Source of the DNA: Rosistilla carotiformis
Lineage (GTDB): Bacteria; Planctomycetota; Planctomycetia; Pirellulales; Pirellulaceae
Assembly (NCBI RefSeq): GCF_007753095.1
Contig: NZ_CP036348.1
Location: forward strand, 496,001-560,000
Direction of reading: 5' to 3'
DNA: 64,000 nt
This document shows, piece after piece, positions 45,440 to 59,904 of this stretch. The notes beneath the pieces were generated by a model. That model made no database searches and had not been told where the DNA came from. It worked only from the letters and a program-made list of their open reading frames with translations. The translations under genes and the position numbers were made by a program. Position 1 is the first letter of the stretch; each line of letters begins with the position of its first letter.

Positions 45440-45783
45440 CTGCGGTCAAGACAGCAGCAGGGCAGGGCGGGTTCGCGCTCTGAAGAATTAATACAACACG
45501 CATTACCACGCGGACGTCGCGGCTCCCCCAGCCATCGCTCCGCGGTCCACCTCGTTCTGCGGATCGTCTCGCTGGCTGTGGGAACGATGGCAGAATGCTT
45601 GCTGGCAGAATGAGAAAAGCGGGGGGAGCGAGAGTTGTTCTTCGCGGAAGCTGCAGCGCAAATAGACTTCGCCTCGTGCGATTGGTTATTCTGCCCCTAT
45701 CATCCTGCCGAAGTTTTGTTCCGCCCCGTCATCGTGTGTCGACACTAAATACGACAGGGGGACGCAACCGTCTCGTTCAGCGG
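45440..45783. repeat. Dispersed repeat, left part (copy A)
   Basis: This segment matches 50841-51140 (copy C): both hold the GCAGGGCAGGGCGGGTTCGC start, GGAGCGAGAGTTGTTC, and a shared CTGCCGAAGTTTTGTT. It ends in CTCGTTCAGCGG at 45772-45783, directly before the toxin gene's downstream region. No gene is supported in the stretch. Confidence 0.75.
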
Positions 45784-45836
45784 AGCACCTGCTGGGCAGA
45801 GGATGATTAGCAGGTGCATTTGCAAGAGTCGTTATC

Positions 45837-46127
45837 TCACCGGTCAGTCCAGTAGTCGGGAGACCGCGATCCGTGGGCAACAGCGACCACCACAATGTCG
45901 GCTCCCTCAATTCGGAAGATAATCCGAAACGGGAAGCGTCGCAGCAAAAAGTAGCGATGGCGAGAGTCGCACTTTGGAAACCGCTCGGGAGCATCCGCGA
46001 TCTGCGATAACGCCCGATCGAATTCCGCATCGAAATCGTTTGCCGTTTCAATGCTTCGCTCGGCGTACCATTTCAGGGACTCCGTGTAGTCGTCCTCTGC
46101 CGCCGAACAGATCGTGACGTTAGCCAT
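45837..46127 (-). CDS. RelE/ParE family toxin
   Basis: The 96-residue protein is a small ParE-type toxin: a YTESLKWYAERS helix, then FDRALSQIADAPERFPKCD, the FLLRRFPFRIIFRIEG strand pair, and IVVVAVAHGSRSPDYWTDR at the C-terminus. ParE toxins block gyrase; other members of the superfamily cleave mRNA on ribosomes. Its start overlaps the stop of the antitoxin gene by 8 bases (ATGGCTAA), so antitoxin is made first. The pair lies inside a split dispersed repeat. Confidence 0.9.
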   Translation of the reverse strand: MANVTICSAAEDDYTESLKWYAERSIETANDFDAEFDRALSQIADAPERFPKCDSRHRYFLLRRFPFRIIFRIEGADIVVVAVAHGSRSPDYWTDR

Positions 46128-46356
46128 CCAGGCCAGCCTTGCGTCGAGCGCGCTGGCGCACTTCAGCCCATGGTGTGCTGGTCATTTCACCCGCGTCGCA
46201 AGCGTCGCTGCGTCGATTGGCCTCGGTGATCCATTGGGAATCGGGGGGCACCCAGTCAAGTGGAGAAACGCTGTCCCAAAGGTTTGCGATCAATTGGGCG
46301 CGATCCGATGCAGGCAACGACTGCGCGGCGGTCAAGATTTCGTTCATGTTGGTCAT
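46120..46356 (-). CDS. Addiction module antitoxin
   Basis: From ATG 46356 the product has 78 residues (MTNMNEILTAAQSLPASDRAQLIANLWDS...), matching the short helical antitoxins of the unstable-antitoxin family that pair with RelE/ParE toxins, including the family's ALSLPxxERxxLxxxL-like pattern. The longer frame to 46440 runs into the dispersed repeat and is rejected. It overlaps the toxin start by 8 bases, typical of such operons, so both should be cotranscribed and autoregulated. Confidence 0.88.
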   Translation of the reverse strand: MTNMNEILTAAQSLPASDRAQLIANLWDSVSPLDWVPPDSQWITEANRRSDACDAGEMTSTPWAEVRQRARRKAGLDG

Positions 46357-46392
46357 AAACGGAATTATACCCAGTTCGTCGACGAAACGACA

Positions 46393-46740
46393 GAAAATGC
46401 GACAGGTTGCACATCCAGCTCGTTCAGCGGTTCGACTCATTCGCAGAACAAAGATTGCGAGTGGCGAGTCTCTTCGTCACGGTTGATTCAAAGTCGATAG
46501 ACTTCGCCTCGTGCCACAAATCATTCTGCCAAAATCTCCTCGTCCTGCGACGCGGCACAATGAATGTGAATACGCGTCGTCCTCGCGACTGGAGATTGGG
46601 GCAGGGGAGGGCGGTTTGAAAGCGGCTGGGTGTGGGCGAGCGGTTGGCGCGAACAGTCGCGAGTAGCCGAGGGCCTTTGGCGGCCGAGAGCATCTCTTCA
46701 GAGGTGCTGGGCAACATTTTATGGGTGTCCCCTTCTTCCT
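46393..46740. repeat. Dispersed repeat, right part (copy B)
   Basis: This segment matches 51115-51400 plus 51808-51880 (copy C). Shared markers are AGAACAAAGATTGCG, CACGGTTGATTCAAAGTCGA, CTTCGCCTCGTGCCACAAA, GGGGCAGGG and, at the end, CTGGGCAACATTTT. Near 46660-46710 on the minus strand it contains a decayed copy of the last codons of the small gene at 53309 (EEMLS, then GYSR in a shifted frame). Confidence 0.8.
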
Positions 46741-46749
46741 TTTCTTCCT

Positions 46750-46920
46750 ACTTACACGGATGGCGAATGGATCGAGGATGCTGACGACGATCGGAACAGT
46801 GTTCCGTACGAAAACCTCGTTCCGGTGATCGGCGAGACGGTTTGTTTTACCGGTGGGATCGAAACGCGGCACCTGCACCCCGGTACGATTAAGCAGGTCG
46901 CATTGTATTTTTTCGTTTAA
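46750..46920 (+). pseudogene. 3' fragment of an unknown gene
   Basis: From about 46750 to the TAA at 46918 the frame reads TYTDGEWIEDADDDRNSVPYE then NLVPVIGETVCFTGGIETRH, with codon use and composition like real genes. Upstream the frame runs into repeat copy B, so the 5' end seems to have been replaced by the repeat. The parent family was not recognised. Confidence 0.45.
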
Positions 46921-46981
46921 CCGCGAGCCCATCGGGCCGCGCGGCCCTGAAAAACGCGGGGCGATGCCCGCGCGGTTAAAC
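46915..46981. repeat. Inverted-repeat-bounded hairpin element
   Basis: GTTTAACCGCG at 46915-46925 is exactly complementary to CGCGGTTAAAC at 46971-46981. The 45 bases between contain further small palindromes (GGGC GAT GCCC). It overlaps the stop codon of the upstream gene fragment and could act as a terminator or be a small palindromic repeat. Confidence 0.6.
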
Positions 46982-47032
46982 TAGAAAACTCTTTGCTTGC
47001 TGCTTAGCGGCGTAGAGCATCTGGTCCGCAAG

Positions 47033-47170
47033 ATGCGCCAAGCGTTTTTGGATTTAGAACAGCGTCTGTCGGATAACCCGATTGACGCATTTGCCATCAT
47101 CAAGCCGAAAGTGGAAGCGGATGCGGGTGGCTCGTTGAATGTGATTTGGCCGGAGATAGACGATGAATGA
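47033..47170 (+). CDS. Short overlapping gene, 45 residues
   Basis: ATG 47033 to TGA 47170 encodes MRQAFLDLEQRLSDNPIDAF, then AIIKPKVEADAGGSLNVIWPEIDDE. The frame is open from 46985, so it may be the end of a longer gene that lost its 5' part. Its stop overlaps the start of the next gene by 8 bases (ATGAATGA), typical of operons, which supports that it is translated. No family is recognised. Confidence 0.5.
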   Translation: MRQAFLDLEQRLSDNPIDAFAIIKPKVEADAGGSLNVIWPEIDDE

Positions 47171-47648
47171 GTCCGAGAGTTTAAACGCTATTAGGTTCGG
47201 GAGGATGCCAAGGTTGCTTCTTGGAGTCGTCGCAGTTCTTATGCTTTTGGTCGTGGTTTTGTCATCTGTTGTTGTAGCGGGTCAGCGAAAGATCAGCGCT
47301 CAATCGCAAAAAATTATCAAATTGGAAGCGGCTCGCGACGGGTGTTCACATGCACTAGGGGAGGTGATGCGTTCGGAACATTGCTTGTTTGCGATCCTGG
47401 GCGGGACCGATGCGGAGTTAATCAAAGGCTTGGAGGCGACGGTCCGGGTTGTTGAGAATAGAGACGTGTTGCGAGTATTGGAGCAATATCGCAGGGATAT
47501 CGGGCGGGAGTCGGAAACGTTTGATGGTACAGAGCCGACTTATCCTGAATTGGTTGCTTCGTTGCGTGAACAGTTGCAGCAGAGTGAAGGGAAATGCCTG
47601 CAGCTTGAGCAGGAATTGGAAGAAGGTCGAAATGAACTGTCGGAATAG
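47163..47648 (+). CDS. Membrane-anchored coiled-coil hypothetical protein
   Basis: The 161-residue protein has one N-terminal membrane helix (LLLGVVAVLMLLVVVLSSVVVAG, about residues 18-40) and a mostly helical, charged remainder with heptad-like pattern (about 41-65 and 125-160, KCLQLEQELEEGRNELSE), so it is probably a periplasmic coiled coil. It overlaps the preceding short gene by 8 bases and the following lipoprotein gene by 17. No family is recognised. Confidence 0.75.
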   Translation: MNESESLNAIRFGRMPRLLLGVVAVLMLLVVVLSSVVVAGQRKISAQSQKIIKLEAARDGCSHALGEVMRSEHCLFAILGGTDAELIKGLEATVRVVENRDVLRVLEQYRRDIGRESETFDGTEPTYPELVASLREQLQQSEGKCLQLEQELEEGRNELSE

Positions 47649-48915
47649 AAGAGGTTGCGGAGCAGGCGCCGTTCGCACAAGAATCGTGGTTCTCGCAACC
47701 TTCGTTTCTTTGCTCTTCGGTGTCGGTTGCGATCATTCCGATCGCAGCACCGTGGTGGCAAAGCCACGCCCGAAATCGGCAGCCAAAGCAAAACCCGTAG
47801 TCGAAGAAGTCTCGATCGATGCATTTCCGGTTGGGGTCAAATCGCTGTTTCCCATCCGCAAAGGGAGCAAGGGGTTTGGGTTGATCGATCGGCATGGAAG
47901 GACGCTTGTGTCGCCAGCTTTTTCCCAGGTCTCCAAAGGGTTCGCGAACGCATCGATTGTCAGTTATGACTACTTTGTCGGGCAGGATCGCGTTTTGCTG
48001 TTGAGTCGCGACGCGTGGTATTACTGTCACGAAGGTGGTGCCGAGCGGGTCGAGCCTACGGTGTCGATCTTCTCCATTCGCTTTGCATACAACGTAGGTG
48101 ACGGCCTGTTTGCGCTCATGCCTACCGACCGAGACAATCGGTATCGTGCGATGGTTGTTGATCCCGAAAGTAAATGGCGGCCGACCGAATCGTTTCAACT
48201 AGCCCCTATGGCCCGCATGAATTCTGGTCGGGTACCAATCCAGGTGGGTGAAAAATATGGTTATGCGGACCGCACGGGGCGAATTGTGATCGAGCCGAAG
48301 TATCAGGATGCTGAAGCCTACTTTGGCGACCCACCGCGTGCTCCCGTCTGTCTTGACGACCGATGGGGCTATTTGGACTTGGATGGAAATGTCGCCGTGC
48401 CGATTCAATACAAAGGGGTTTCGGCTTGGTTTGATCAGGGGATGGCATTGGTTTGGAAGCACGATCGCCCGCGAAGTTTTTTTATCGATGTCGACGGGGC
48501 CGAATTGCGTGAGTTCCCTCTTTCATGGCATATGCCCAATGCCTGTTTTGACGGGTTTGCTCAAGGACGACTTTATTTTCGCGGGCCCGACCTCGCTGAC
48601 CCGCGGATGGGAGGAGGGTTTGTTTTGCAGTTTGGTGTCATCGATACGGATGGCAATTGGGTTGTGGAGCCCAATCGAGGAATGAGCGGGGTCGGAGCAA
48701 GCTTTTGGCCCGGTCACGCCATTCTGAACCGCTGGTCCGAGGGGCAGTTCGCGGAAGAGGCTTGTTTCATTTATGGAATCGATGGCAAGGTTGTCAGCAA
48801 GTTGCCTCGCCGCGATGTGAAGCAATGGAATGGGTTTAGTTATGGGCTGGCGTGCGATCGAGATTGCAAAGTCGGTTATGTCGATACGAACGGCAACCGG
48901 CCTGGAGTGCCGTGA
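47632..48915 (+). CDS. WG-repeat lipoprotein
   Basis: The ATG at 47632 lies inside the end of the previous gene; it gives 427 residues with a lipoprotein-like signal (VVLATFVSLLFGVGC). The mature part has at least four WG-type repeats: GFGLIDRHGRTLVSPAF, KYGYADRTGRIVIEPKY, RWGYLDLDGNVAVPIQY and FGVIDTDGNWVVEPNR. WG repeats form small beta units and mediate contacts. The last codons overlap the start of the methyltransferase-glycosyltransferase fusion gene (GTGA), so the chain of four genes is one operon. The ligand is unknown. Confidence 0.85.
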   Translation: MNCRNRRGCGAGAVRTRIVVLATFVSLLFGVGCDHSDRSTVVAKPRPKSAAKAKPVVEEVSIDAFPVGVKSLFPIRKGSKGFGLIDRHGRTLVSPAFSQVSKGFANASIVSYDYFVGQDRVLLLSRDAWYYCHEGGAERVEPTVSIFSIRFAYNVGDGLFALMPTDRDNRYRAMVVDPESKWRPTESFQLAPMARMNSGRVPIQVGEKYGYADRTGRIVIEPKYQDAEAYFGDPPRAPVCLDDRWGYLDLDGNVAVPIQYKGVSAWFDQGMALVWKHDRPRSFFIDVDGAELREFPLSWHMPNACFDGFAQGRLYFRGPDLADPRMGGGFVLQFGVIDTDGNWVVEPNRGMSGVGASFWPGHAILNRWSEGQFAEEACFIYGIDGKVVSKLPRRDVKQWNGFSYGLACDRDCKVGYVDTNGNRPGVP

Positions 48916-50666
48916 AGTTAAGTGAAATTGAAGCAGTCCCCCCTCTCCCAAAAGACTACGATTATCTCATAAGTATGTCGAATCCTGCTTTTTCTGCCGC
49001 GACGGTAGCCAATGGTTTGCAGCGATGTTCTTCCAAATCGGGGGGCATGCTAGTGCTCCAGTACGCGAGGATCGTGTTGGAAATTATCGCCCGCGCGCCC
49101 GCCAATGTGCTTGTCTTTGGCGCTGGGGCCGATACGGCGATGTATGTCGATGCCAATCCTGGTGGGCGGACGGTTGTTCTGGAGCGGCATGCGAAGTGGC
49201 TCGACGCGATCCAGGATGTTTCTTGCGAGTCCTTTCACGTTCACTACTCGACCGTTCGCAGTGCGGGAGTTCGCGATCATGTGACAGCCCCCGAAGGGAT
49301 GCCTTGGAATCTGTTGGATGTGCCGTGGGATGTGATCATCGTCGATGGCCCCGAAGGGCATACCGATACGATGCCCGGTCGACAACAGAGTCTTTTTGCC
49401 GCTTCGCTGGCATCAAAAAACAGCAGTGTTTTATTTGTTCACGACTACCAGCGTGACTTGGAACGGCAGTGCTGTGATCGGTACCTGGGTTCAGCCGTTG
49501 AGGAGATCGGCCAGCAACCATCGCTGGCAGTCTTTGACGGTGCGACGGTGTCGCTGCGCACGGCAGGCGACAGTGCGGAGTCTGACGTGCCGCCAAAACA
49601 GCATCCTTTGATGGAAGTTGCTTGCGCTGGCAAACCGGTTTCCCGGCTGCAAGGCTCGTCGCGGCCCGTCGTTTCTGTGGTGATTCCGACGCACGATGAA
49701 GGGGATTGGTTGAAGCGGACCGTCCATAGCGTGTTGGCGGCAAAATCGGACACTGCGTATGAGATCGTGATCTTTGATGATGCGTCGACCGATGGCAGCG
49801 TGGATGTGGTTCGCAATCTTGATGGGGTGAACGTCGTTTCGGCTTGTGAATTGCCCGTAGAACGCATTCCCGACTGGGGAAAACCACGAGGCGACCACGA
49901 TGAATCGAGAACAGGTCAAGCCGTCGGCTGTATCGTTGGCCGAAACGCTGGGGCGGAAGCCGCCTCGGGTGATTATTTATGCTTCTTAGACAGCCATGTT
50001 TTGGTGCAGGATCATTGGTTGGATCATCTGTTGGAAACATCGCGCAAGCATGGTGATCGTTGCCTGGTCAGCGGGAACATCTTGAATGTCGACAATCTCG
50101 GCGAACCCAATATCGAATCAAAGCAGTTTGGGTATACGCTGCGCGACTGGGGCGCGCGAACCACGTGGCACTATTACGGACTTGGTCGTTTCGAAACGGC
50201 TTATGAAACACCACTCTGTCCCGGTGGTTTGATGTTCACCAGCCGTCGTCACTTTGACTCCATCGGTGGTTTCAGTGAGCACGTCCGCTGGTGGGGAGGG
50301 ACCGATGCAGAGATATCGCTCAAGAATTACATGCTTGGTGGTGTCGCGCTGGCCGATCCACTCGTTGCAATCTATCACTACTACAAGAACATTACCGATC
50401 GCAAACCGTCGTTCAAAGTCAGTTATCGCGACACGTTCTTCAACCGTCTGTTCATCATGAAAGCGTTTAGTAGTCAAGCGGTGTTTGACCGTTTGTGTGG
50501 GCACTACGCCCTGCAGGCTAAGATGGATGCGATTCTTGCCGACGTTCACCAGCAGAAGTACTTGCAGGCGATCGAAGCGATGCAGGCAACGTTTGTGCGA
50601 ACGTGGGATCAGTTTGCGACACAATTTGCGTCTCAGTTGAAGCAGCTTCCGATTCAGGCAGGCTAG
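48912..50666 (+). CDS. Fusion of glucuronoxylan-methyltransferase-like and GalNAc-transferase-like domains
   Basis: The GTG at 48912 overlaps the WG-lipoprotein stop by 4 bases and gives 584 residues. Domain 1 (about 65-195) matches the plant DUF579/GXM pattern: VLVFGAGADTAMY, GGRTVVLERHAKWLDAI, SFHVHYSTV, DVPWDVIIVDGPEGH, MPGRQQSLFAAS and VLFVHDYQRDLE. That family 4-O-methylates glucuronic acid with SAM. Domain 2 (about 251-480) is a GT-A glycosyltransferase: VSVVIPTHDEGDW, DDASTDGS, the DSH metal motif, and PGGLMFTSRRHFDSIGGF with RWWGGTDAEISLKNYMLGG as in polypeptide GalNAc-transferases. A two-step sugar addition and methylation enzyme is inferred. Confidence 0.8.
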   Translation: MKLSEIEAVPPLPKDYDYLISMSNPAFSAATVANGLQRCSSKSGGMLVLQYARIVLEIIARAPANVLVFGAGADTAMYVDANPGGRTVVLERHAKWLDAIQDVSCESFHVHYSTVRSAGVRDHVTAPEGMPWNLLDVPWDVIIVDGPEGHTDTMPGRQQSLFAASLASKNSSVLFVHDYQRDLERQCCDRYLGSAVEEIGQQPSLAVFDGATVSLRTAGDSAESDVPPKQHPLMEVACAGKPVSRLQGSSRPVVSVVIPTHDEGDWLKRTVHSVLAAKSDTAYEIVIFDDASTDGSVDVVRNLDGVNVVSACELPVERIPDWGKPRGDHDESRTGQAVGCIVGRNAGAEAASGDYLCFLDSHVLVQDHWLDHLLETSRKHGDRCLVSGNILNVDNLGEPNIESKQFGYTLRDWGARTTWHYYGLGRFETAYETPLCPGGLMFTSRRHFDSIGGFSEHVRWWGGTDAEISLKNYMLGGVALADPLVAIYHYYKNITDRKPSFKVSYRDTFFNRLFIMKAFSSQAVFDRLCGHYALQAKMDAILADVHQQKYLQAIEAMQATFVRTWDQFATQFASQLKQLPIQAG

Positions 50667-50840
50667 ATCGCTTTGGTGTAGATACGGCCCGCCAGGCTAG
50701 CTCTGTTGGGCCTGGCTGCGGGATCATGGGCTGGAGCTTCGCCCCATGGGGCGGCAGTAAACGGGGAGCCGTATCTGTCCGCGAATGAGAGTTGGGGTGG
50801 TCACGTTATTGGGGGCGATTTGATTGCGATCGCTTGTCAG

Positions 50841-51400
50841 AGCAGGGCAGGGCGGGTTCGCGCTTTGAGAATTAACGCAAATCGCACTACCACGTGGACG
50901 CCGCGGCGCCCCGAGCCATCGTTCTGCGAATCCTCTCGTTGGTTCTGGGAACGCAGGCAGAATGATTGGCGCAGAATGAAAAAAAATGCGGGGAGCGAGA
51001 GTTGTTCGTTGCGGAAGTCGCAGCGCAAATGCACGTCGCTTCGTGGGATGGATTATTCTGCCCCCATCATTCTGCCGAAGTTTTGTTTTGCACCCGTTAT
51101 GGTGCATCGACACCAGATGCGACAGGTCGCACACTCCGCTCGTTCGGCGGTTCGGCTGATTCGTAGAACAAAGATTGCGCGTGGCGAGTCTCTATGTCAC
51201 GGTTGATTCAAAGTCGATAGACTTCGCCTCGTGCCACAAATCATTCTGCCAAAATCTCCTCATCCTGCGACGCTGCACAACGAATGTGAACGGGCGGCGT
51301 CGCGACTGGAGCTTGGGGCAGGGCAGGGCGGTTTGAAAGCGGCTGGAGGTGGGGAGCGGTTGGGCGCGCGCTGTCGCGAGTCGCCGAGGGCCTTTGACGC
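50841..51400. repeat. Dispersed repeat copy C, left segment
   Basis: This copy is uninterrupted over the region where copies A and B are separated by the toxin-antitoxin pair. It shares long blocks with A (to about 51140) and B (from about 51115), for example CTGCCGAAGTTTTGTTTTG and CAAAGTCGATAGACTTCGCC. The right part continues at 51808 after the inserted element. Confidence 0.8.
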
Positions 51401-51807
51401 TGTCAGTTATACGCAAGTCGCAGGCAACGGCGAAAGCAAGGGGCGAAAGGGAGGCGAAAGGGACAGCCACGTTCCTGGCACGCCTGGCGCGGGCCGAAGG
51501 TCCAGCAATTTGCATAGCCGAGCCTGCAGGGCTGGGTATCAGTCGACGGTGCCCGGTTTCATTTCACAACGGGTGAAGGGGCAACGCCCCGGGTGGGGTG
51601 GTGACAATCGACCGGGCCTACAGCCCAACCATGTCAATCATCGCCGCTAGAACCCAGGCCGATGGCCTGGGCTATGCAAACGGTCGAGCCTGCGGCCCTG
51701 ACTCGGATAAATACGATGTGGAACGGTCTGCGACGAACGAAAGACTTCCCACTGGCCTGGCAAGTGTTCGGTCGCGATAACTCACCATGACTTACGTATA
51801 ACTGACA
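51401..51807. mobile_element. Non-autonomous inverted-repeat element (MITE-like), 407 bp
   Basis: The ends are TGTCAGTTATACGCAAGTC (51401-51419) and its inverted copy GACTTACGTATAACTGACA (51789-51807), 18 of 19 bases matching. The insertion interrupts repeat copy C; copy B shows the uninterrupted target. GGCCTTTG(A/G)CG flanks both sides (51389-51399 and 51808-51818), a probable target duplication of 8-11 bases. No transposase gene is inside, so it would need one in trans. Confidence 0.75.
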
Positions 51808-51880
51808 GGCCTTTGGCGGCCGAGAGCAACTCTTCAAAGGTGCTGGGCAACATTTTTTGCGTGTCCCCTTCTTCCTCCCC
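51808..51880. repeat. Dispersed repeat copy C, right segment
   Basis: It continues copy C after the inserted element and matches the end of copy B, including GCTGGGCAACATTTT and TGTCCCCTTCTTCC. On the minus strand it holds the remnant TFEELLSAAKG of the small gene's C-terminus. Confidence 0.75.
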
Positions 51881-52136: not shown

Positions 52137-53144
52137 GTGGTAGACACGCTCTCCGACATCGTTCGGCGAATGACCGGCGCACAATCCGTTCAGCTTGGTG
52201 AACCGATCCAGAGCCTCTGGAGTGGCTACGGTGTGATTCAGCGTGCTCTCTTGCGAGGGCTCCAGGACGACGGATCGGGCGAGCCAACTCCCGTGGTCAT
52301 CAAACACATCGATGTCTCTAGGGCACGCTCTAACCGTCGAGGCTGGGGAGGTGACGCGTCGCACTTGCGGAAAGTCCGTTCCTACGGAGTCGAGCAGGTG
52401 TTCTACGAGAAGTACTCGGGGCAATGCGGACCATCCTGCCAGGTCCCCGGCCTTGTTGCAGCTCACCAGAAAGCAAACGAAGCCGGCTGGGTGATTGTGC
52501 TCATCGATCTCGACGCTCAAGGTTTCGATCGCCGCAAAAACGATCTCGACCTGCATGGTCTCCGCGCCTGTCTGACTTGGCTGGCAAACTTCCACGCTAC
52601 GTTCCTGGGAAGCTCGGCGAGCGGCTTGTGGCCAATTGGCACCTACTGGCACTTGGACACACGCCCCGACGAACTCGCCGCCTTGCCGACCGGCCCTTTA
52701 AAGTCGTCGGCACCGGAGATCGATCGCCGTTTAAATGCTGCAAGGTTCCAGACGTTGGTTCACGGGGATGCCAAAGTTGCGAACTTCTGCTTTTCTGACA
52801 GAGACAGTGGCCGCGTTGCTGCGGTGGACTTTCAATACGTCGGTCGCGGCTGCGGCATGAAGGACGTCGCCTATCTGGTCAGCAGTTGCTTGAGCGCAGA
52901 CGACGCGGCCTCCCAGGAGGCTGCGTTCCTGAATGTCTATTTCGATGCGTTACGGAATGCCATCGCCGGCCGCCACATCGAAGTAGACGTCGCGGAACTG
53001 GAACGCGAATGGCGTGCGTTGTACCGGTTCGCCTGGGCCGATTTTTACCGTTTTCTTGCGGGCTGGTCTCCGGACCATTGGAAGCTGAACGCCTACAGCG
53101 ATCGCATTACGCAGTCGGTCATCCAACAACTGGGCAATCGCTGA
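52137..53144 (+). CDS. Aminoglycoside phosphotransferase/ecdysteroid kinase-like protein
   Basis: The GTG start gives 335 residues with a protein-kinase-like fold: VVIKHIDV for the nucleotide-binding Lys, [14 protein letters not shown] with the catalytic Asp (HGD), and [21 protein letters not shown] with the metal-binding DFQ. The DFQ form points to the EcKL/DUF1679-type family rather than classic antibiotic kinases. It phosphorylates a small alcohol; the substrate is unknown. It stands alone, with repeat copies on both sides. Confidence 0.8.
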
Positions 53145-53174
53145 TCGCCTGCCGCATTCAAGGCTTCCACATTT

Positions 53175-53365
53175 TCTGCTGCCAAAATCTCCACGTCCTG
53201 CGACGCGGCATGACGAACGTGAATGCGCGGTGTCGCCGCAACTGGAGTTCGGGGCAGGGGAGGGCGGTTCGAAACCGCCCGGGTGCGAGAGCGCGCGTGG
53301 GACGCGAGCTATCGCGAGTAGCCGAGGCCTTTGACGACCGAGAGCATCTCTTCAAAGGTGATGTA
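53175..53365. repeat. Dispersed repeat copy D, including the end of the small gene
   Basis: TGCCAAAATCTCC, GTCCTGCGACGCGGCA and GGGGCAGGGGAGGGCGGTT match copies B and C. In this copy the sequence continues into the intact 3' end of the gene at 53309, which the other copies carry only as a decayed fragment. Confidence 0.75.
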
Positions 53366-58031: not shown

Positions 58032-59732
58032 TCAATGCCGGTCGCGTTTCGTCAAAGGAGCGGGGCGTCGGGGCGGTTTGACCGCAAACGTCCTGCGGCT
58101 CTTGCCACTGCCGATGATCACATGCGACCACGAGGCGGAGATGGCGGTCTCGGAACCAGCAAATTCGCGGATCAAATTGCCTCGGCGCGACGCCGGCGTG
58201 TCTTTGGGAGGCATCCGCATCGCGCTGGAAATCTCGTCCAGATCGACGATCGAACAGCAGGGAACCGCTCCCGTTAAACGGTGGTAATATCCGTTGGGGG
58301 AGAGTTCGTGGTACCGCAGGTCGACCTTTTTCCGCGACGCCAGGCTGGCATCGCTCCCCATCTGATCGATCAGCCACTTTTTGGAAGCCCAGTCGATCTT
58401 GGCCAGCGAGGGTTCGTAATCGACTGGCAGTTCGCGGATCTGCCCGGCTGCGTCGAGCATCTGTTCCCAGAGTTCGAGGATGTCCCAAGCTTCGGAGCTG
58501 GCCGGCTCTTCGCTGTCGAAGACAAATTGGCGACAGCGGTGCAGGTAGGCTTGCTGGATTTCCAGCGCCGTCATCGGGCCGCTGTTAGTCGCCACGCGAG
58601 CAATCAGGCTCCAGTCGCTGGCGATCTGTTGCAACGCCTCGAGCGGTTTTTTCAGCTTGGGCAGCCCCTTGGCGTAGCCCGCTTCGATCATGTCCAGGAC
58701 GAGGCTTGTCGCGCCAACTTTTAAATACTCCGCGGCATCGGCGACGTTTGAATCGGCCAATCCGATCTGCAGTCGCTGGCGTCGACCCAGCAGTTCCAGC
58801 AGGCAGCGGGGCGAGATGATCGATTCGCTGCACATCGTCTGCAACCAGTGACCGAAGACATAGATCGGCCGTTCGTTCAGGTAGCCTCCCATCCCGACCA
58901 TGCTGTTGATCGCGGCGGCTTTGCCCGAGAGCGAGAACTTGCCGCGGGCATTCAAGTGTCCCGTACCGCAGAGTATCGTCCGCGAGATCAGGAACGGGGT
59001 GAGCCCTTGGCGTTGTTGGCGGAAGGCGGTGAAGCGGGCGACCAACCACAGCAGGCACGTCAGCGGGGCGTGAACGATTCGCAGCAGTCCCGCGGCGGCG
59101 CGGATGCACCAGTTGGGAATGTCCAACAGGCTTTCGAGGCAGGGGCGACGTCCGCGAACGATCGCGCCGGCACTCTTCAGCGAGACCAGCAGCGAAACGC
59201 CTAAGAAGGTCAGCGTCAGGCAGATCGCGACGTACAGCATGTACATCGGGATCAGCATCAAGATCCCGGCGCGGTAGGCCCACAGCATCGGGCCGCTGGC
59301 GACGTCGGCCGAATAATTCTCTTGGCATCCGTAGACATGGTCTTCGGCATCGCGGGAGTTCTTCAGCAGGCAGACCGAAGCGGGGAGATCGCACCCCGCG
59401 ACCGCGTCGGCGAACAATCGGTCTTGAGCGCGTTGGCAGACCAGCAGATTGCGTGGGCTGCTGCATTCGGGAGTCGCTCCTTCGATCAAGCCGCCCGGTT
59501 GGTCCATCCAATCGAAGCACGATTCCAGCGAGATCGCACCGCCGGTTGCGAGGAACAATCGGCAATCATCGAACCGCGCCTTGGCCGTCGGAACCGATTG
59601 CGTCAGGCTCTTGCAGACCGCGTCGTAAACTTCGCGTCGCGATGGCGGATGTTCTTGGTCGGCGGGCGTTTGAACGACCGTGGCGTATTCGGTTTCCAGC
59701 CCGATGTGTCGGCGCAGCAACCGGCTTGCCAC
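58032..59732 (-). CDS. PafA/Dop family protein (Pup ligase/depupylase homologue) with membrane insert
   Basis: The GTG at 59732, 4 bases after the stop of a small upstream gene, gives 566 residues beginning VASRLLRRHIGLETEY, like PafA starts. Carboxylate-amine-ligase landmarks follow: IGLETEY (about 10-16), ATPECSSP (86-93), LLKNSRDAEDHVYGCQENY (122-140), FLISRTILCGTG (247-258), LADSNVADAAEYLKVGATSL, VLDMIEAGY, MTALEIQQAY, KIDWASKKWLIDQ and VDLRYHEL. Residues about 150-243 are an insertion absent from known PafA proteins, with two to three hydrophobic segments. The usual LYLD catalytic Asp position reads LFLA. The longer ATG frame (59807) is not favoured. Confidence 0.85.
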   Translation of the reverse strand: MASRLLRRHIGLETEYATVVQTPADQEHPPSRREVYDAVCKSLTQSVPTAKARFDDCRLFLATGGAISLESCFDWMDQPGGLIEGATPECSSPRNLLVCQRAQDRLFADAVAGCDLPASVCLLKNSRDAEDHVYGCQENYSADVASGPMLWAYRAGILMLIPMYMLYVAICLTLTFLGVSLLVSLKSAGAIVRGRRPCLESLLDIPNWCIRAAAGLLRIVHAPLTCLLWLVARFTAFRQQRQGLTPFLISRTILCGTGHLNARGKFSLSGKAAAINSMVGMGGYLNERPIYVFGHWLQTMCSESIISPRCLLELLGRRQRLQIGLADSNVADAAEYLKVGATSLVLDMIEAGYAKGLPKLKKPLEALQQIASDWSLIARVATNSGPMTALEIQQAYLHRCRQFVFDSEEPASSEAWDILELWEQMLDAAGQIRELPVDYEPSLAKIDWASKKWLIDQMGSDASLASRKKVDLRYHELSPNGYYHRLTGAVPCCSIVDLDEISSAMRMPPKDTPASRRGNLIREFAGSETAISASWSHVIIGSGKSRRTFAVKPPRRPAPLTKRDRH

Positions 59733-59736
59733 GGCG

Positions 59737-59904
59737 CTATTCGCCTTGTTGCTGTGTGTTTGCACGGCGAATGTACTCGCGAGGGGATCGATGGGCGTCG
59801 CAGACAATCTTTTGGGCTACATCCTGCAACGCCCCTTCGCTTGCCGACGGAGGAGGGGAGGCCGTGGGGAGGGTGGCACGTTCGACGGGTGTCTGTGTTT
59901 TCAT
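59737..59904 (-). CDS. Candidate Pup/UBact-like small modifier protein
   Basis: This 55-codon frame reads MKTQTPVERATL, then a Pro/Ser-rich stretch, EGALQDVAQKIV and ends SPREYIRRANTQQQGE. The C-terminus resembles that of Pup (EFVRSYVQKGGE/Q type) and ends in Gly-Glu like UBact. It stops 4 bases before the PafA/Dop gene's GTG, so both should be cotranslated. No ribosome binding site beyond a weak GGGAACG is seen. The match is by eye and short; conservation in other Pirellulaceae is the needed support. Confidence 0.6.
   Translation of the reverse strand: MKTQTPVERATLPTASPPPSASEGALQDVAQKIVCDAHRSPREYIRRANTQQQGE

Follow-up and report, generated by a model that had tools for sequence, protein, structure and literature searches.

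What would a bacterium do with a methyltransferase of a plant cell-wall family joined to a glycosyltransferase? The question is raised by one gene of the planctomycete Rosistilla carotiformis, found in a 64,000-nucleotide stretch of its genome (contig NZ_CP036348.1, positions 496,001 to 560,000). This stretch is here called the window, and positions are given in its numbering unless another contig is named. The gene (48912..50666, +) was read as an open reading frame (ORF) of 584 aa with a GTG start and a stop at 50666. A first-pass annotation had described its product as a fusion of a GXM-type xylan methyltransferase domain and a GT27-like glycosyltransferase (GT) domain. The fusion is real and well supported. 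The profiles PF21729, TIGR01627 and PF00535, the predicted fold and the homology to N-acetylgalactosamine (GalNAc) transferases place a GXM-family methyltransferase and a glycosyltransferase in one frame, as that annotation had it, and these are known families in an arrangement not seen before. On balance, and with moderate confidence, we favour a two-domain enzyme that would add a sugar to a surface glycan and then methylate a sugar of the product.

A GXM-family domain and a glycosyltransferase in one frame

A GTG at 48852 is a possible longer start of the frame, giving 604 aa, but the GTG at 48912 overlaps the stop codon TGA that ends the WG-repeat gene before it, in the sequence GTGA. Because both halves of the gene have equal third-position guanine-plus-cytosine (GC) contents (0.59 and 0.58) and the host genome is one contig, there is no sign of an assembly chimera. 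No export signal was seen in the fusion protein on inspection by eye.

The N-terminal domain (residues 58-193; 49083..49490, +) matches the Pfam family IRX15_IRX15L_GXM (PF21729) with 86.2 bits against a cut-off of 27.8 (E 2.6e-24). The matching Pfam model is PF21729; PF04669, which the first-pass annotation had named, is not one of the seven Pfam families listed for the protein with E up to 10. The TIGR01627 score of the protein is 81 bits (E 1e-22), under the NCBIfam cut-off of 149.85; among nine other members, two pass (L007, 160.1; L005, 159.8; L numbers denote loci and G numbers genomes) and seven fail. The five N-terminal motifs claimed at first pass were all found, in the same order, at residues 84-97, 107-114, 138-150, 155-161 and 173-184. 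Twenty columns are identical in 19/19 aligned GXM domains, the window included: L67, F69, G70, G72, D74, N82, G85, T87, E91, W96, P131, W139, D140, D145, P147, P155, R157, D178, R181 and E184. The window domain is nevertheless divergent, with 24.6-32.0% identity to the 18 others and a terminal branch of 2.75. The tree of the 19 domains was built without plant sequences, the searched collections holding no plant genomes. It groups the window domain with viral copies of the L027 type (95/86), a placement that is not relied on because the window branch is long. The likeness to the plant DUF579 family (GXM1-3, IRX15/IRX15L, AGM1/2; PF21729, TIGR01627) lies in the profile, the order of the motifs and the predicted class-I methyltransferase fold, whereas the window domain is bacterial, divergent and joined to a glycosyltransferase. 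The plant GXM, IRX15 and AGM1 are placed in the Golgi in passages of PMC6508755.

The two domains were folded separately. The model of the N-terminal domain, from 13 rows, has a predicted local distance difference test score (pLDDT) of 76.4, with blocks within residues 51-190 at 89-96, and its top Foldseek matches are O-methyltransferases (4oa5, E 4.7e-6). After realignment to the first 1000 Foldseek chains, the top five rows were SpnH (two entries), MeT1 (two) and MycF, with Z scores of 14.3-15.1. The rhamnosyl 4'-O-methyltransferase SpnH aligned over 165 residues at 2.7 Å (Z 15.1), with MeT1 at Z 15.1 and the 3'-O enzyme MycF at Z 14.3; rows that differ by no more than 1 Z count as equal, and further methyltransferases come just below them. 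The structure titles name SpnH and MycF as sugar O-methyltransferases; both are presumably of the TylF type, and mycobacterial MeT1 is taken by us to be a sugar enzyme as well. The predicted fold thus points, as a leaning only, toward sugar O-methyltransferases. These three proteins share with the domain the class-I fold and the best fold alignments; they differ in that identity in the first five rows is just 10-16%, and no TylF/MycF-type or other methyltransferase family is among the seven Pfam families listed up to E 10. A search of PDB sequences with the N-domain profile listed ten entries up to E 1, none of them a methyltransferase. Lectins were the best of these matches, from E 0.0077, and were judged to be chance. 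When full-length and single-domain rows were aligned together, GT rows were misplaced onto the N-terminal domain, and this alignment was dropped.

The C-terminal half matches Glycos_transf_2 (PF00535) from residue 255 with 84.9 bits against a cut-off of 23.3 (E 7.9e-24), and Glyco_transf_7C (PF02709) at residues 427-469 (E 1.8e-6). Its GT-A core spans residues 255-470 (49674..50321, +), and alignments with GalNAc-transferases continue to about residue 499. By sequence, the closest solved proteins are the GalNAc-transferases T10 (E 2e-16) and T2, of family GT27, which are the nearest solved relatives of residues 333-499. The DSH and WGGTDAEISL motifs noticed at first pass were also found, as FLDSH (residues 358-362; 49983..49997, +) and WWGGTDAEISL (residues 460-470; 50289..50321, +), the latter being the counterpart of the GT27 motif WGGE(N/Q). 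FLDSH and AIYHYY of the window protein align with FLDSH and VGH of the GalNAc-transferases; the D-x-H motif and the later histidine have a metal role. What differs from GT27 is that WGGTD stands against WGGEN in T2 and WGGEQ in T10, the two enzymes compared, and that no ricin-type lectin domain is among the seven Pfam families listed up to E 10. Eleven related GT domains were compared here by alignment or by eye, and in each the second place of the pair (E-N/Q in GT27) is acidic; the pair is ED in L013, L014, L015, L017, L065 and L068, ND in L064 and L070, SD in L016, EE in L069 and AE in L099. Since an acid at this second place is the base of inverting GT2 and GT7 enzymes, the domain is, from its motifs, better described as a GT-A domain of GT2/GT27-like type than as a member of GT27. 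The earlier label of GT27-like therefore stands for the nearest solved homologues and the D-x-H motif, and strict membership of GT27 does not.

Rare GXM domains in bacteria and viruses

GXM-type domains are rare in bacteria but are spread over five bacterial phyla and occur in viral contigs. In evenly drawn, overlapping genome samples, with the central genome included, PF21729 was found in 2/392 genomes of the phylum and 2/396 of the order of R. carotiformis. For the phyla of three metagenome-assembled genomes (MAGs), the counts were 2/299 (a Burkholderiales MAG), 2/247 (a Spirochaetes MAG) and 3/190 (a Chlamydiae MAG), and there was no match in 14 control genomes. The R. carotiformis genome itself has one such gene only (two stretches). 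Conservation of the fusion in other planctomycetes had been proposed as a check, and it is not borne out: with the own genome excluded, the domain occurs in one of 391 phylum genomes (G071) and one of 395 order genomes (G1446), in both as a separate, stand-alone gene. Two congeners have no PF21729 match. A search with the whole protein in 98 genomes, the own included, gave no second full-length match among the at most 13 candidates scored per genome; the matches were on the GT side, except that G439 matched weakly on the N side (residues 88-202, E 2.7e-4). Further loci came from a scan of genome contigs (five GXM loci from 39 stretches tried) and a plasmid search, whose one match, in Priestia megaterium, is already labelled "TIGR01627 domain-containing protein" in RefSeq. 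The INPHARED phage records gave no match to the N-terminal domain.

Twelve distinct bacterial loci were compared: the window, L011 (the G071 gene, also met as L003 and L004), L106, L005, L007, L052, L053, L008, L050, L009, L010 and L049. In 10/12 a glycosyltransferase is either fused to the GXM domain (three) or encoded by the next gene (seven). Besides the window, the fused cases are a 950-aa protein in L009, with GT2, a GT4-like stretch below the cut-off and GXM, and a 442-aa GT2-GXM protein in L049. The next gene, on either strand, is a GT gene in L007, L052, L053, L008, L050, L010 and L106. It is of the GT_PLOD type in L007 (E 1.6e-36), L052 (E 6.5e-37) and L053 (E 1.2e-46) and of GT4 in L008, L050 and L010, the GXM gene of L010 being set among glycosyltransferase genes. 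The partner in L106 has no Pfam match at E 0.01 and shares 34% identity over 197 columns with the Nucleotid_trans protein whose gene adjoins the GXM gene of viral contig L030. For L005, the gene table is incomplete and places a GT-D-fold protein at the third annotated gene from the GXM gene. Binning errors are possible, since loci L007-L011 come from metagenome assemblies and a number of contigs are short (L049, 3,476 bases; L106, 7,059). As a separate observation, in the Chlamydiota-phylum loci (L007:3785-5295, L052:587-2007 and L053:753-2121) the products of both the GXM gene and the adjoining PLOD-type gene have hydrophobic stretches at the N-terminus that, judged by eye, resemble signal peptides.

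The scan of viral contigs gave 14 GXM loci (63 stretches), and 12 of these contigs came up again in a second scan. Pfam was run on seven of the 14, each of which scored over the cut-off, and the remainder rest on tblastn; PHROGs gave no family at E 0.001 for six viral GXM proteins. The most elaborate case is a 907-aa protein (L036:6555-9278) with serial RXYLT1/GT47-like, GT8, GXM and GT34-like stretches. In L027, L028, L029, L031 and L032, the GXM domain is terminal in a protein of 551-556 aa, whose front part resembles a GT weakly in L027 (E 0.0054, below the cut-off) and has no match in L029. The next gene is a GT gene in L030 and L033. The proteins of L009, L049, L036 and the L027 type resemble the window protein in joining GXM to sugar-transfer domains and differ from it in partners and order, with no obvious copies of one fusion. 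As the arrangements vary (GXM-GT; GT2, GT4-like, GXM; GT2-GXM; GT8-GXM-GT34-like), GXM-GT fusions probably arose more than once.

Two other features of the viral contigs were observed. In L037:5960-8529 and L038:1573-4733 the GXM gene lies between frames matching the front and the back of a family B DNA polymerase, as if it had entered a split polymerase gene or come to lie next to one, and the ORFs of L039 and L040 show the same arrangement. A viral protein in L069:2995-4380 combines a GT2-like domain (VLDSH, WGYEE) with a C-terminal part weakly like other methyltransferase families, below the cut-off, and is possibly a second, unrelated GT-methylase fusion.

The variable segment around the fusion gene

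The fusion gene lies in a 5,070-base segment (46738..51807) that was delimited by BLAST against two congeners, whose regions are 94-96% identical to the window. The segment is missing from G393, where the flanks join inside a 69-base repeat. At the same place, G392 has about 3.9 kilobases with a two-frame transposase (HTH_Tnp_1 and rve) and a HEAT/VWA protein. The edges are copies of the 69-base direct repeat (family D6) at 46672..46740 and 51808..51876, the right copy being 94% identical to the left. More widely, imperfect direct repeats (61-96%) at 45456-46740, 50841-51876 and 53167-53363 border the segment. A 353-base repeat stretch has four genomic matches, itself included, all in this neighbourhood, and is therefore not a dispersed family.

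Three genes make up a cassette that behaves as gained, lost or exchanged: one for a protein of 161 aa in which a hydrophobic stretch was seen by eye at the N-terminus and which has no Pfam match at E 0.001 (47163..47648, +), the WG-repeat gene (47449..48915, +), which overlaps the fusion gene by four bases, and the fusion gene. The WG-repeat protein has no second match in its own genome and is probably a lipoprotein that starts further downstream, judging from a lipobox seen by eye. The WG-repeat and fusion genes have a third-position GC of 0.58-0.60, whereas LeuA is at 0.73 and PPK and the Pup ligase are both at 0.76. Composition alone is a weak argument, since the DUF4838, APH-like and TPR genes outside the segment are at 0.64-0.68. 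An ecdysteroid-kinase-like/APH gene (52137-53144, +) at the edge of the segment is present in both congeners, and the Pup-ligase-type gene (PF03136, E 1.2e-78) is at 58032-59807 (-).

Possible functions and the origin of the family

In the function that we favour, the C-terminal GT-A domain would move a sugar from a nucleotide sugar onto a growing, probably lipid-linked, glycan, and the N-terminal GXM-family domain would then O-methylate a sugar of that product, using S-adenosylmethionine and probably a divalent metal. The fusion would hold the methylase beside its freshly made acceptor. Plant GXMs methylate glucuronic acid on a xylooligomer and not glucuronic acid or UDP-glucuronic acid, in assays that contained CoCl2, according to the portions of PMC3921138 that describe them. 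A tethered methylase fits such enzymes, which act only once the sugar is on the chain, and the repeated pairing of GXM with GTs would be explained if a methylase that waits on a glycosyltransferase gains from tethering. The analysis establishes the two profile matches, the predicted fold of the N-terminal domain, the GXM-GT pairing repeated in unrelated bacteria and phages and the strain-variable locus. Beyond these, we infer that both domains act in turn on one glycan and that this glycan is at the cell surface; any identity given to the added sugar and to the methylated hydroxyl is of the same kind, O-4 of a uronic acid being a first guess from the family.

Several observations weigh against a coupled enzyme of this kind. 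This exact architecture turned up only once in the collections searched. Beside the fusion gene we recognised no gene for glycan assembly; its neighbours encode the WG-repeat protein, the protein without a Pfam match and, 1.5 kilobases downstream, the APH/ecdysteroid-kinase-like protein. The GT pairings were counted at GXM loci only. There was no GT among the four neighbours tested in L011, nor among the one to two tested at each of the stand-alone viral loci L034, L037 and L038; none was noticed at L035, L039 and L040, also stand-alone, whose neighbours were not separately examined. The model of the GT domain is weak (pLDDT 59.9, seven rows); Foldseek nevertheless ranks GalNAc-T2 chains first for it (E 1.5e-15) and chondroitin polymerase 28th.

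The N-terminal domain might instead methylate another sugar, such as rhamnose, a hexosamine or mannose, at another position. The divergence of the domain, its score below the TIGR01627 cut-off and its best folds, a rhamnosyl 4'-O enzyme, a mycinamicin 3'-O enzyme and MeT1, would suit this, and a passage of PMC6508755 suggests that uncharacterised members may use other sugars. The members of known activity in the accounts of PMC3921138 and PMC6508755, the GXMs and AGMs, however, target O-4 of glucuronic acid, and the columns shared by the family are retained in the window domain; we regard this alternative as rather unlikely, while taking it seriously. Clearly less probable is an accidental fusion within a mobile segment, of two enzymes without coupled function, one or both of them decaying. 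That the segment is strain-variable, bounded by repeats and low in third-position GC agrees with such an accident, as do the singleton architecture, the change of E to T at the WGGE motif and the long branch, but the motifs are kept in both halves, the frame is open and other GXM-GT fusions occur elsewhere. Finally, we hold it very improbable that the enzyme is a protein O-glycosyltransferase of the GT27 type that methylates the sugar it adds, with the WG-repeat protein encoded beside it as a possible substrate. Among solved structures, polypeptide GalNAc-transferases are nearest by sequence and fold, and the two genes overlap by four bases; against this stand the T-D at the E-N/Q pair of GT27 together with the second-place acid of the 11 related domains, the lack of a listed lectin domain, and the fact that the fusion is without an export signal by eye whereas the WG-repeat protein appears exported.

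The GXM family is not confined to plants, and its rare but wide bacterial and phage members accompany glycosyltransferases; this population is a more interesting result than the single fusion. The family is described as plant-specific in a passage of PMC13413985, and among the open-licence PMC papers surveyed, none dealing with bacterial DUF579 came to notice. One speculative possibility, which we hold to be doubtful, is that DUF579/GXM was originally a prokaryotic or phage module for glycan methylation that travelled with GTs and repeatedly fused to them, and that the xylan and arabinogalactan methylases of plants derive from a bacterial pair of this kind. The 4-O-methylation of glucuronic acid in arabinogalactan requires family members, according to part of PMC6508755. 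The Chlamydiota copies are candidate donors: a PLOD-type GT adjoins in 3/3 loci, and L007, the one tested, passes the TIGR01627 cut-off, as does the Priestia copy. The bacterial members give a way to test the origin of the plant xylan methylases. They are also small proteins for work on structure and mechanism in a family for which no solved relative was found by sequence, and may include ready-made transfer-plus-methylation enzymes for producing methylated glycans.

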